From NCBI RefSeq assembly GCF_006974125.1, contig NZ_CP037858.1, positions 3,348,001 to 3,412,000 on the forward strand: a stretch of 64,000 nucleotides of DNA. The letters run 5' to 3'. The notes below the pieces were generated by a model that was given only the letters and a program-made list of their open reading frames with translations, was not told the DNA's origin and did no database searches. The position numbers and the translations under genes were made by a program. Position 1 is the stretch's first letter. Each line of letters starts with the position of its first letter. The stretch comes from Stenotrophomonas maltophilia (GTDB lineage: Bacteria; Pseudomonadota; Gammaproteobacteria; Xanthomonadales; Xanthomonadaceae). Shown here one piece after another: positions 38,569-42,858 of the stretch.

Positions 38569-40425
38569 ATGCAGGACACCGCGCTCACCGCCCCCAACGC
38601 CGAAATCCGTCGTGCCGGGGTCGATCTCAATGGACTGATGACGGTGCTGGGCAAGCACCTGTACTCCACTCCGGTGGTGGCGCTGCGTGAGCTGGTGCAG
38701 AACGCGCACGACTCGATCATCCGTCGTCGCATCGAACAGCCCGGCATCGAAGTGCCTTCGCGCATCTCGGTGCAGGTCGATGCCGCTGCCGGCGTGCTGC
38801 GCATCACCGATACCGGTGCTGGCCTGACCCGCCAGGAAATCCACGACTACCTGGCTACCGTGGGCGTCGGCTACACCCGTGGCCTGCGTCAGGGCGGCGA
38901 GGACGATGAGGGGCTGATCGGCATGTTCGGCCTCGGCTTCCTGTCGGCATTCGTGCTGGCGCGCAGGGTCAGCGTGCGTACCACCTCGTACCAGACGCCG
39001 GAACTGGGGCATCTGTACGTATCCAGCAACGCCGAACAATACACCGTCAGCGAAATGCCGGCGCGCGCGGTCGGCACCGAGGTGGAGCTGGAGCTGCATC
39101 CGGATTTCCTGCCGCTGGCCAACGAAGCGCGCTTGCATGAGGTACTGGGCCGCTACTGTGCCCTGCTGTCCGAGCCGATCTTCATCGGTGCCGCGGCCGA
39201 AGCGCTCAACCCCGAGCCGCCGCCGTGGCGCGGGCAGGGTGATGTTGCCCTGCATCCGGTGCAGGCGCGCCGCCAGGCGCTGCAGTTCGCCGCGCGTTTC
39301 GAACATGATTTCGAGCCGATCGTCACCGTGCCGTTGCGCGCGGATGGCAGCAGCGATGCCACCGGCCTGTTGTGGGTGCAGGACGGCGCTACCTACGGCA
39401 CCAGCGACAACCGCAATCTGTCGGTGTTCGTGCGCGGCATGCTGCTGGACGACGATGCGCGCGACCTGCTGCCGCCGTGGGCGGGCTTCATTGGTGGGGT
39501 GATTGAATCCTCGCGGCTGACGCCCACCGCCAGCCGCGAAGACCTGCAGCGCGACGACCAGTACCGCGCCGTGCAGCATGCACTTCTGGAAGCGCTGATC
39601 GACGGCCTGGCCGACGTCGCGCGGCAGCAGCCGGAAGCCTGGCGGCGCGTTCTCACGCGCCACAATGAGGCCTTGCTGGGCGCAGCGCTGTGCGATGACC
39701 GCCTGTTCGACCTGCTGCTGGAACACGTGCGCGTGCCGACTTCGCAGGGCGACCTGCCGGCCAGTGCGTTGCCGGCACGCGGTGCCGTGCACGTGATCCT
39801 CGACAATGGCGGCGGCTTCGAGGAAATGCTGTTCCGCGCGATGGGCGTGCCGGTCGCGCATGGCCATCGCTATGCGGTGGTGCCGTTCCTGCGTCGCTGG
39901 ACCCAGGCCAAGGGCCTGCGTCTGGTTGAACTCGGCACGGAGCAGGGCAACCGCGCGCTGTTCCGCACTGACGACAGCCTCGACGAGGCGCAGCTGGCGT
40001 GGCTGCGCGAGCAGCTGGGTGACGGCGAACAGCTGCTGCCGGCACGCTTCAGCCCCGAGTCGCTGCCCGTGGTGGTGGTGCCCGACCGCGAGGCTGAGCT
40101 GAAGCAGCGCCTGGAAGACGACGAGAACGACAAGCGCGTTTCAATGGCGGCGCTGCGCCTGGCCCGGCAGTTCACGGCGCGCATCGAATCGCGTGCGCCG
40201 TCGCGGTTGTACCTCAACCTCGACAATCCGGCCGTGCAGGCGCTGTTGCGCGCCCAACGCGATGGCCACCCGCAGGCCGAAGCCGCAGCACGCCTGCTGC
40301 GCTCACTGAAGATCATCGTCGCAGCGCAGGGCCGCCCGCTGGCCCGTGCGACCGCCACGCCGGGGCCGGACCTCAACGGCGCTTTCACTGATATCGCCGG
40401 TGCCCTGCAGCAGATGCTGCGCTGA
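38569..40425 (+). CDS. HSP90-family (HtpG-like) ATPase
   Basis: 618 aa. The N-terminal GHKL ATPase site is intact: ALRELVQNAHDSI (Glu41, Asn45, Asp48), RITDTGAGLT (81-85) and GLIGMFGLGFLSAF (glycine-rich lid). The middle and C-terminal parts are only distantly like HtpG (RGMLLDDDARDLLPPWAGFIGGVIESS, TASREDLQRD). No MEEVD-like end (it finishes LQQMLR). ATG after CAGGAG. It is followed 49 nt later by a large TPR protein, suggesting a chaperone-partner unit. A genuine htpG is expected elsewhere in the genome, so this is probably a specialised paralogue; client unknown. Confidence 0.85.
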   Translation: MQDTALTAPNAEIRRAGVDLNGLMTVLGKHLYSTPVVALRELVQNAHDSIIRRRIEQPGIEVPSRISVQVDAAAGVLRITDTGAGLTRQEIHDYLATVGVGYTRGLRQGGEDDEGLIGMFGLGFLSAFVLARRVSVRTTSYQTPELGHLYVSSNAEQYTVSEMPARAVGTEVELELHPDFLPLANEARLHEVLGRYCALLSEPIFIGAAAEALNPEPPPWRGQGDVALHPVQARRQALQFAARFEHDFEPIVTVPLRADGSSDATGLLWVQDGATYGTSDNRNLSVFVRGMLLDDDARDLLPPWAGFIGGVIESSRLTPTASREDLQRDDQYRAVQHALLEALIDGLADVARQQPEAWRRVLTRHNEALLGAALCDDRLFDLLLEHVRVPTSQGDLPASALPARGAVHVILDNGGGFEEMLFRAMGVPVAHGHRYAVVPFLRRWTQAKGLRLVELGTEQGNRALFRTDDSLDEAQLAWLREQLGDGEQLLPARFSPESLPVVVVPDREAELKQRLEDDENDKRVSMAALRLARQFTARIESRAPSRLYLNLDNPAVQALLRAQRDGHPQAEAAARLLRSLKIIVAAQGRPLARATATPGPDLNGAFTDIAGALQQMLR

Positions 40426-40474
40426 GCACCGCCCCCCTCTCATCCAGCCTTCGCTAGACAGGAGCACTTACCCC

Positions 40475-42781
40475 ATGGACATCTGGAACTGGGTCGAAAA
40501 ACTGCAGGGCGACCTGCGCCAGGCAGGCCAGGCGCAGAACGCGCAGCTGCTGAACCGCCTCGCCGACGAGGTGAGCGAACTGCGTGTCGACCGCGTCGAC
40601 GCGCTGCTGCCCGAAGCGCGTGCACTGGGCAAAGCGCTCGACAACCCCTGGGTCGACGTCTACGTCGGCCATTGGGCGCTGCGCAACCGCGTCGGCAACC
40701 GTGTGGAAGGCGAGAGCGCGCTGGGCGAAGCCGTGGCGCTGTTCGAACGCGCGCATCGTGATGACACGCTGGAGTGCCCACAGTCGATCTGCGTGACCCA
40801 GGATCTGGCTGCCTGCTACGGCAACATCGATGGCCCGGGCTGGGTTCCCGAGCGCGTCGAGGTGTGTGATGAAACGCTGGCACGCATCGACCCGAGCTGG
40901 GCGTGCTTCCAGTGCCTGAGCTGCGAGAAGGCTGATGCACTGCTCGACGATGGCCGCGGCCAGGATGCGCTGGATTACCTGCAGGTGCAGTCCGATGCGA
41001 TCGAGGCCTGCGGCAAGGAAGTGTTCGACAGCTTCCCGGAGATGCAGATCAAGATCCTGCTCGGCATGGGCCGCGCCGAAGAAGCGTTGGCGCTGATCGA
41101 GACGCGTGAGGCCGAAGTCGCCGCGTCCGGCGAGTACGAGCCGGCCAACTGCACGGTGCCGCGCCGCCTGTCCAAGGCCTGGGCGCTGGCGCAGCTCGGC
41201 CGCGACGAAGAAGCGCTGCAGCAGCTGGTGCCGTGGAACGAACTGACCCCGACCTATTGGCGGCTGTGGGCCAACACGGCCGCCGCGCTATGCCAGCGTG
41301 ATCCGTCGCGCAACACCTGGGACCTGGGTACGCGCTACACCACCATCATCGAGCACTTCGCGAAGGTCGGCTCGCACCGGCTGCTGATCGAAGTGGCCGC
41401 GCTGAGCCTGGAGCTGGCCCTGCAGCGCGGCGCACGCTGGGTGGCACAGCGCCAGCTGGAGCTGGCACGGACCCATCTGGCGCAGCTGCGCCAGGACCGC
41501 GGTGCCGCAGCGCTGGTGGCCGGCCTGGCCGCTCGCATCGATGCTTTGCCGGATGTCGCACCGCTGCCGGTGCCGGCACCGGAACTGCTGGCCTGGCTGG
41601 AGGTACAGGGCGAGCAGAACCAGTCGCGTGATCCTGAGCGCGAGGCGCAGTGGCTGCTGCAGGCACAGATGCAGTTGCCGGATGATGAAGCACTGGCCGA
41701 GATGGCTGCCTCGGCATTGAGCGCCTGTGGTGCGCAGGCGGAAGCGCGTGCATTGCTGTGGCGTTTCGTGCGTGCGCACACGCAGGATGATGGTCCGGCC
41801 GCGTACACGCTGATGCGCTGGCTGACCGAGCAGGGCGACGACGATGGGCTGCGCCAACTGGCTGAACTCTACCGCGGCAGCGTGCCGGTGTTCGCGCACT
41901 GGTGCGAAGTGCAGCGCGCCCGTCGCGTATCCGACTGGCCGGCGCTGGAGCAGGCCGCACAGGCGCTGCTGGCCGCCTCGCCGGGTTCGCACGGCGCACG
42001 TGGCACGCTGGCGCGGATGTACATGGAAACCGGCCGCTTCAGCGAAGCACAGGCCTGCTATGCGCAGCTGGTGGAGCTGCTGGAAGAACCCAACGCCGCG
42101 CACTGGGACCACATGAGTGCCGCCAGCGCGGCGCGGGATTGGGACGCGGTGCGTCGCTCGGCGGCGGCGATCGGCATGGAGCTGTCCAGCCAGGACGGCG
42201 TGGTCGAAGAGCCGTGGGGCTGGGTGATCATCCGCAGCGAAGAGAATGGCGAGCCGATGGAGTACTACGCCCGGCGCAGTGGCCCGGTGACCGCGCGCAT
42301 CGTCGAGAACGCACCGGCCAACCGTGCTCAGCAGGTCGGCGACTGGGTGGTGTTCGATGCCGCGCTGGTGCACCCGGCGCCGGAGGAGGAGGAGGCTCGC
42401 GAGCACTTCATTCCGACCTATGCGCAGGTACATGTGCTGGAACGCGGCGGCTTCGCGCGCAGTTGGCTGATCGATGGCGCGCACCCGGGCGAAGAGGCCT
42501 GGAATGCCTTTGTCGAAGCTGCCGAGGCGCAGGGCTGGCAGGTGTGGTCGCATAGTCGCGCGGACTACACCGTGACCGACCCTGGTGTGGAGGAGGGCAC
42601 CCTGCCGGGCGTGCTGTTCACCGTTGCCCAGCCGCAGGATCATGCGCCGCTGGCGCTGCACCGCTTCCTGCAGCAGGAGACCGCAGCGTGGCCACATCCG
42701 CATTGCTGGCTGCGCCTGGCCGAGGCCTGTGACCAGGACCGGCAGCCGCACCTGGACGTGATCGAGCGCTACGGGTTGTAA
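40475..42781 (+). CDS. Large TPR-repeat protein, partner of the HSP90-like ATPase
   Basis: 768 aa, cytoplasmic (no signal). Helical repeats over about residues 1-560 include WALAQLGRDEEALQQLVPWN and LARMYMETGRFSEAQACYAQ. The last about 190 residues are a mixed domain without recognised family (EPWGWVIIRSEENGEPMEYY...HFIPTYAQVHVLERG). Two cysteines in WACFQCLSCEKADALL form a CxxCxxC pattern. Ribosome site AGGAG. Immediately downstream of the HSP90-like gene; both are likely one transcript. Function unknown; a co-chaperone or client-adaptor role is inference. Confidence 0.82.
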   Translation: MDIWNWVEKLQGDLRQAGQAQNAQLLNRLADEVSELRVDRVDALLPEARALGKALDNPWVDVYVGHWALRNRVGNRVEGESALGEAVALFERAHRDDTLECPQSICVTQDLAACYGNIDGPGWVPERVEVCDETLARIDPSWACFQCLSCEKADALLDDGRGQDALDYLQVQSDAIEACGKEVFDSFPEMQIKILLGMGRAEEALALIETREAEVAASGEYEPANCTVPRRLSKAWALAQLGRDEEALQQLVPWNELTPTYWRLWANTAAALCQRDPSRNTWDLGTRYTTIIEHFAKVGSHRLLIEVAALSLELALQRGARWVAQRQLELARTHLAQLRQDRGAAALVAGLAARIDALPDVAPLPVPAPELLAWLEVQGEQNQSRDPEREAQWLLQAQMQLPDDEALAEMAASALSACGAQAEARALLWRFVRAHTQDDGPAAYTLMRWLTEQGDDDGLRQLAELYRGSVPVFAHWCEVQRARRVSDWPALEQAAQALLAASPGSHGARGTLARMYMETGRFSEAQACYAQLVELLEEPNAAHWDHMSAASAARDWDAVRRSAAAIGMELSSQDGVVEEPWGWVIIRSEENGEPMEYYARRSGPVTARIVENAPANRAQQVGDWVVFDAALVHPAPEEEEAREHFIPTYAQVHVLERGGFARSWLIDGAHPGEEAWNAFVEAAEAQGWQVWSHSRADYTVTDPGVEEGTLPGVLFTVAQPQDHAPLALHRFLQQETAAWPHPHCWLRLAEACDQDRQPHLDVIERYGL

Positions 42782-42793
42782 GCCCGGTATCGG

Positions 42794-42858
42794 GTAGTGC
42801 CGGCCGCTGGCCGGCAACGCCATGAGATCCTGTGTTGCCGGCCAGCGGCCGGCACTAC
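42794..42858. repeat. Inverted pair of SMAG/REP elements
   Basis: GTAG-headed 25-nt unit at 42794-42818 and its exact inverse at 42834-42858, with 15 nt between. Together they can fold into a 25-bp hairpin 13 nt after the TPR gene stop and may protect or terminate the transcript. Confidence 0.9.

Follow-up and report, generated by a model that had tools for sequence, protein, structure and literature searches.

In a stretch of the Stenotrophomonas maltophilia genome (contig NZ_CP037858.1, positions 3,348,001 to 3,412,000; the whole 64,000 nt are referred to as the window, and positions are counted from its first letter), the gene for a divergent Hsp90-family ATPase of 618 aa, here named HSP90L (38569..40425, plus strand), is followed on the same strand by the gene for a tetratricopeptide repeat (TPR) protein of 768 aa, here named the TPR partner (40475..42781). 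The two genes form a conserved unit, and on balance we favor reading them as a two-gene chaperone module, in which HSP90L would be a dimeric, ATP-driven Hsp90 and the TPR protein its dedicated partner. TPR co-chaperones are usually regarded as a eukaryotic addition to Hsp90. The module is suggested by the presence of both genes, the ATPase residues retained in HSP90L, the Hsp90 domain order of its model, the near-perfect adjacency, co-presence and apparent joint decay of the two genes, and an HtpG that is encoded independently. The 49-nt intergenic gap (40426..40474, plus strand), already described in the initial annotation and confirmed by the coordinates, carries AGGAG 5′ of the TPR start codon, and on the plus strand nothing resembling a terminator was found between the genes.

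Conservation of the gene pair

Named loci were fetched with the HSP90L profile alone. Among the best 80 of 128, the HSP90L gene was followed by a TPR gene of like orientation in 78; the outcome that the initial annotation had named as refuting, homologues mostly not adjacent, did not occur. The gap ranged between −4 and 122 nt in 77 of these 78 paired loci (profile alignment) and was 640 nt in L142. One of the two unpaired loci (L140) is ended by a contig edge after HSP90L; the other is considered below. The TPR gene of L131 is split over two frames, and short TPR forms occur in Pseudomonas (L124, L126, and L132), where the match is limited to the first ∼356 profile positions, as well as in G061 and G466, whose partners again match the N-terminal half of the profile alone.

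In a set of 61 genomes (the own genome and 60 relatives), an HSP90L orthologue was present in 20 (the own genome and 19 others; 78–100% identity), and the TPR protein was present in the identical 20 (66–100% identity); another 11 rows hold local matches that are weak (≤33.3 bits). When 299 genomes sampled from the order were searched, HSP90L (at E ≤ 1e-60) and the TPR protein (at E ≤ 1e-30) were found in the same 21 genomes and never one without the other; 13 of these belong to the window's genus, seven to another genus of the family, and one to another family. Stops or breaks affect both the HSP90L and the TPR gene in two genomes of genus g292, G614 (C256) and G685 (C97), which is described here as possible joint decay, both being draft assemblies in which an error could have the same effect. 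At the level of the class, where HSP90L was searched in part of the genomes, 115 of 369 had a TPR match at E ≤ 0.001, and in all five that scored at least 234 bits HSP90L lay upstream. Five of 398 genomes in the phylum sample matched the PRK14083 alignment at E ≤ 1e-70, and all five matches were HSP90L; in G1019, the lone match outside the window's genus, the TPR gene adjoins it.

HSP90L, the TPR partner, and the separate htpG

HSP90L is, judging from its sequence, a member of an Hsp90 lineage separate from HtpG. It passed the cut-offs of Pfam PF00183 (38.8 bits; cut-off 24.4) and of PF13589 (HATPase_c_3; 33.6 bits; cut-off 25). The best family match, covering residues 15–565, was NF010683/PRK14083 with 268.8 bits, which is below the equivalog cut-off of 455, as are the scores of the relatives from E. 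coli and P. aeruginosa (287.7 and 292.9 bits, respectively); the score for NF003555/PRK05218 (HtpG) was 195.7 bits, again below the equivalog cut-off (371). The structure model aligns with full-length TRAP1 and has the N-terminal, middle, and C-terminal domains in the order of Hsp90. Residues E41, N45, and D81 of the GHKL ATP-binding domain (residues ∼18–206; 38620..39186) and R323 (39535–39537, within SRE) of the middle-domain segment matching Pfam HSP90 (residues 276–356; 39394..39636), which we take to be the ATP-site and middle-domain catalytic residues of Hsp90, are invariant among 32 relatives (positions mapped by hand). The initial annotation had described an intact GHKL ATPase site in a protein of HtpG length, and both parts of this description stand. 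The lid motif reads GMFGLGF in place of GQFGVGF, with M119 invariant among 32 relatives; GQFG is among the universal Hsp90 residues of Chen et al (PMC1525184), whose remaining markers were found in HSP90L by hand mapping, G169 being kept in at least 90% of the relatives. An EEVD C-terminal tail was seen in none of the 120 relatives listed, in agreement with the earlier description of an HSP90-like protein without a MEEVD end.

In an unrooted tree of 31 proteins (13 HSP90L, six PRK14083, and 11 canonical HtpG rows, plus a cyanobacterial protein), which has long branches and skewed composition, HSP90L, PRK14083, and canonical HtpG occupied separate 100/100 branches. A 100/100 split placed HSP90L and PRK14083 on one side and HtpG on the other, and the grouping of the former two apart from the cyanobacterial protein was supported at 87/65. 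The family cut-off is exceeded by five PRK14083 rows; the sixth, from Streptomyces sp. BHT-5-2, was assigned on the basis of 63% identity with the first. HSP90L and the PRK14083 Hsp90s align over their whole length (hhalign probability 100%).

Searched with PF00183, the own genome yielded a canonical htpG (C1:3831968-3833179; 423.8 bits), 0.44 Mb away from the HSP90L gene, for which the score was 39.8 bits. All 20 HSP90L-bearing genomes of the 61 likewise hold a canonical HtpG match, ∼28–30% identical, so that the second htpG, for which a check had been proposed, is present in the own genome and in all 19 pair-bearing relatives. HSP90L is, thus, not simply the organism's HtpG. That it might be, next to an unrelated gene, would agree with its HtpG-like length and with the name “molecular chaperone HtpG” carried by some database entries of its relatives. 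However, the canonical gene lies elsewhere both here (423.8 versus 39.8 bits) and in the 19 relatives, HSP90L falls under the NCBI cut-off for HtpG and sits on a 100/100 branch apart, and its adjacency to the TPR gene is conserved; the second htpG and the conserved adjacency rule this reading out, and we attach next to no probability to it. “HtpG” names in such genomes cover two different proteins. The proposal of a dedicated HSP90–TPR unit apart from HtpG, thus, stood with respect to the conserved unit and the organism's own htpG, but the pair occurs in other organisms too.

The TPR partner barely passed the Pfam cut-off for TPR_19 (25.6 bits; cut-off 25), which 25 of 33 relatives match at E ≤ 0.1. 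Its model (mean pLDDT 92) consists of 29 helices up to residue 565 and is β-rich from residue 582, the C-terminal domain comprising residues ∼575–768 (42197..42778). Structural neighbors were generic TPR superhelices (MalT, APC/C subunits, and Rap proteins), which indicate fold and not function; the TPR solenoid filled the neighbor lists, which therefore say little on the fold of the β-rich end. The conserved core (residues ∼1–350; 40475..41524) is the sole part matched in the short forms, which have kept the N-terminal half. It contains two cysteine pairs, C101-x4-C106 and C144-x2-C147 (40775..40915), and all four cysteines are present in 192 of 192 relatives covering these columns (199 aligned; 104 distinct segments); the short form of L126 retains them as well. 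A metal site made up of the four was not supported by the model, in which C101/C106 and C144/C147 begin successive helices (104–135 and 143–158), so that a plain hairpin would place the pairs at opposite ends.

Part of the β-rich end recurs in separate TPR frames of 312–478 aa (38–57 bits), mostly in genomes without the pair. Four such frames, when scanned (three of the four in one scan), matched generic TPR models over the cut-off or gave no match. One family of separate frames sharing the β-rich part (L053–L062, L146, and L147) has a CLRCSYG-x-PH-like motif in most members and no specific family name. In Lysobacter enzymogenes (L123:16870-17238), an extra frame 4.7 kb downstream of the pair copies part of the TPR C-terminal domain (71 bits) and appears from this match to be a partial duplicate of the TPR partner.

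A second Hsp90–TPR gene pairing and the competing explanations

Within the proposed module, HSP90L would cycle as an ATP-driven dimer, and the N-terminal half of the TPR partner (∼350 residues with the two invariant Cys pairs) may dock on it. Because the EEVD tail is absent from the relatives listed, docking would have to use another surface of HSP90L. The remaining solenoid and the β-rich end would then recruit or hold a client. For the TPR protein itself, the role of a co-chaperone or, less likely, of a client of HSP90L is the best reading that the sequences suggest.

The Hsp90s of family PRK14083 have TPR-type neighbors of their own. In all six loci considered (Streptomyces globosus, S. chartreusis, Streptomyces sp. 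BHT-5-2, L221, Listeria, and Paenibacillus), the next gene after the Hsp90 gene encodes a member of one TPR-type family, the members of which are related to each other at E ≤ 1e-16, that of Paenibacillus included. TPR matches were obtained for partners from five of the six loci: those of S. globosus, L221, and the first Listeria copy exceed the Pfam TPR cut-off, those of the two other Streptomyces and the second Listeria copy stay under it, and the Paenibacillus partner has no TPR match. As a control, the next genes of canonical htpG were scanned in 10 of 20 loci, partly hand-picked as those with more plausible frames, and none of the 10 had a TPR match at E ≤ 0.01 (five are S4-domain genes, and three, possibly shadow frames, lack any match). 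Nor did two named canonical htpG loci on plasmids adjoin a gene named TPR. The Listeria locus (L. monocytogenes, NZ_LR134399.1; L217:5989-9774) has its PRK14083 Hsp90 gene beside fri, followed by two TPR-type genes that are 72% identical to each other and an SMI1/KNR4 gene. L221 (MT837560.1), which contains PRK14083-type Hsp90 and TPR genes, is labelled “Bacteriophage sp.” but reads like a bacterial chromosome fragment.

The fact that the PRK14083 partners form one family lends more weight to the broader notion that bacteria possess Hsp90–TPR machines, in which a non-HtpG Hsp90 lineage, lacking the EEVD tail used in eukaryotes, would be coupled to an adjacent TPR-type protein in at least three phyla (Pseudomonadota, Actinomycetota, and Bacillota). 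Of the two partner families, one accompanies HSP90L and the other is common to the PRK14083 Hsp90s of Actinomycetota and Bacillota. Such coupling would be very old or have arisen twice. We put this notion forward tentatively and with less confidence than the module itself.

Several observations weigh against the module. In Thorsellia (L139), HSP90L is kept, but there is no TPR gene within 8 kb downstream, an aspartyl-tRNA-synthetase-like gene (by eye) being found in its place. Co-presence is largely among close kin, and the 21 genomes of the order are not 21 independent events. No genuine HSP90L–TPR fusion protein was found; in two metagenome ORFs considered as fusions (P0241 and P0243), HSP90L runs into the TPR start via stretches that match neither protein, which is frameshift-like. 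Furthermore, the PRK14083 partners gave no BLASTP match to the TPR partner at E ≤ 1e-3, and hhalign returned a probability of 12% (E 0.0023; generic repeats) against one Streptomyces partner and 46% (E 0.0002; generic repeats alone) against the alignment of the partner family, so that homology of the two families was shown by neither method. As they are not detectably homologous, the two kinds of pair may work differently despite their matching gene order. Both partner families have an invariant CxxC near the N-terminal end (C162, A164-C165, and C197 are invariant in that of PRK14083; Listeria numbering), which does not establish homology.

The chief rival, which we consider unlikely but well ahead of the other alternatives, makes the TPR protein not a co-chaperone but the sole obligate client of HSP90L and the effector of the pair; HSP90L would then be an ATPase reserved for folding or remodelling this one scaffold, which it would mature or switch. 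It would account for the identical co-inheritance data, and several traits of the partner suit it: its length varies, as the short forms illustrate, and HSP90L is the more conserved of the two when compared with the window proteins (70% versus 57% identity in P. aeruginosa, 77% versus 62% in Xanthomonas arboricola, and about 60% versus 37% in E. coli). The gene inferred to encode the TPR partner in P. aeruginosa is, moreover, listed in regulation and interaction tables (see below). However, the PRK14083 partners are also of TPR type although not detectably related, which an adaptor fits better than a unique client does.

More improbable still is a phage-defence or other conflict module made up of a GHKL ATPase and a TPR sensor. 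Presence is patchy (21 of 299 genomes of the order; 245 of 5,426 complete E. coli genomes by megablast), GHKL ATPases are known in defence systems (VcSduA; PMC12137116), and a plasmid of the cyanobacterium Pseudanabaena sp. ABRG5-3 encodes an 877-aa HSP90 (L175:4926-7559) with a weak C-terminal TIR-like match (PF10137; E 0.001, below the cut-off). The gene adjoins a TIR gene and precedes a TPR gene by two genes, possibly an Hsp90-based conflict system. On the other hand, the TPR protein matched none of the families of PADLOC-DB 2.0.0 at E ≤ 1, and HSP90L gave weak GHKL-domain matches alone (best E 1e-4); no nuclease, TIR, or other effector domain was matched in either protein. The 21 loci matched in viral contigs all fall within residues 7–145, no full-length relative being found there. 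All 245 places in E. coli are chromosomal, and in the two loci read (E2348/69 and FDAARGOS_144) the pair, with a 1-nt gap, is flanked by fdhD on the formate dehydrogenase side and by the frv region on the other.

Genomic surroundings and known systems

The flanks of the pair differ between organisms, which counts in favor of the chaperone module. Upstream of the pair in the window lies a radA-like gene, and downstream a small gene, a cytochrome-assembly-like gene on the other strand, and an ffh-like gene (all by eye); a sigma-70 promoter scan returned no sites. Immediately 3′ of the TPR gene (42794-42858), the window carries the inverted repeat GTAGTGCCGGCCGCTGGCCGGCA, which has seven matches with ≤3 mismatches in the window versus none expected and presumably resembles the GTAG-type REP elements of Stenotrophomonas. 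In Xanthomonas vasicola, radA is ∼4.6 kb upstream of the pair; in Salmonella Infantis, the pair is near fdhD. Matches to plasmid records covered at least 80% in five of 297 cases (two X. vasicola records, an 847-kb P. aeruginosa plasmid, and two more distant Hsp90s), and those to a phage collection did so in two of 19 (a Salmonella genome contig and L221).

A conserved third gene was not found, as no outside family occurred in more than four of 22 representative loci. The outside clusters were ABC-ATPase-like (four loci; by eye and from the P. aeruginosa annotation), receptor-like (three loci; by eye, two of them 94% identical), and Hsp70 (three loci; Pfam), the remainder being read as shadow frames. 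In Dyella (L125:4168-12114) and Luteibacter (L128:2699-12144), the pair directly follows dnaK-dnaJ, so that Hsp70, Hsp40, Hsp90, and TPR genes stand in a row; hrcA is found further upstream in Luteibacter, and the Dyella dnaK is spread over two frames. Azonexus has another Hsp70 gene ∼0.8 kb downstream of the pair on the other strand. When 97 loci were searched with DnaK and DnaJ of Luteibacter, Hsp70 was found in these three and DnaJ in two. The dnaK-dnaJ setting is a hint of a chaperone context, not a rule.

In P. aeruginosa (L173), the HSP90L and TPR proteins are 70% and 57% identical, respectively, to those of the window and are encoded in the same order with a 36-nt gap. The flanks are unlike those of the window, a LysR gene and branched-chain amino-acid transporter (liv) genes enclosing the pair; we take the gene order there to be PA1067–PA1070. 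From this order and from PMC4053335, in which PA1069 appears operonic with an Hsp90 gene, the pair is most likely PA1068–PA1069. The PA1069 protein is absent or reduced in efhP mutants (PMC4053335), and the gene is among those bound by AmrZ (RNA-seq change 3.22; PMC3946381) and among predicted Crc targets with proteome data (PMC3003667). It also appears in a table of the BatR-interaction section of PMC13411936, in an adhesion proteome table (PMC5541441), and in an oligosaccharide transcriptome table (PMC7044273); “PA1068” in PMC9995270 and PMC8315991 denotes strain names, not the gene. During heat shock of PAO1, RNA-seq gave a log2 change of −1.98 for PA1069 and of 2.83 for htpG (PMC4957987, the available text of which does not contain PA1068). 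Provided that PA1069 is the TPR gene, this opposite response speaks against a heat-shock unit of the classical kind, a reading that is not favored. Subject to the same identification, the signals seen in P. aeruginosa are calcium, AmrZ, and catabolite control; no function is assigned to the pair in the parts of the literature consulted.

According to Press et al (PMC3708813), no obligate co-chaperones of bacterial Hsp90 have been identified, and literature searches among open-licence papers found none on a bacterial Hsp90–TPR pairing. The occurrence of the pair in the tractable E. coli and P. aeruginosa makes the question of bacterial co-chaperones directly testable and offers a simple two-component system for dissecting the control of Hsp90 by a TPR protein. 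It also puts the focus on divergent bacterial Hsp90s that surveys have set aside. In Chen et al (2006, PMC1525184), these are HTPG Groups B and C; Press et al (2013, PMC3708813) set them aside as hsp90B and hsp90C. Some of them come from genomes with a further Hsp90 belonging to a different group (both sources). They resemble HSP90L in being divergent bacterial Hsp90s, and a TPR partner is not mentioned in the available text of either source. HSP90L may belong to Group C, as the Hsp90s that Chen et al report from gamma-proteobacteria, Firmicutes, and Actinobacteria fall in Groups A and C.

NF010683/PRK14083 is the closest known counterpart by family match: it shares the tree side apart from HtpG and, in six loci, the TPR-type gene that follows. 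HSP90L differs from it in scoring below its cut-off of 455, in forming a 100/100 clade of its own, and in having a different partner family. Eukaryotic systems of the Hop/Sti1 type are alike in combining an Hsp90 ATPase with a TPR protein, here the presumed partner; the bacterial pair differs from them in that HSP90L has no EEVD tail (0 of 120) and in that its large, multi-repeat partner is encoded next door.

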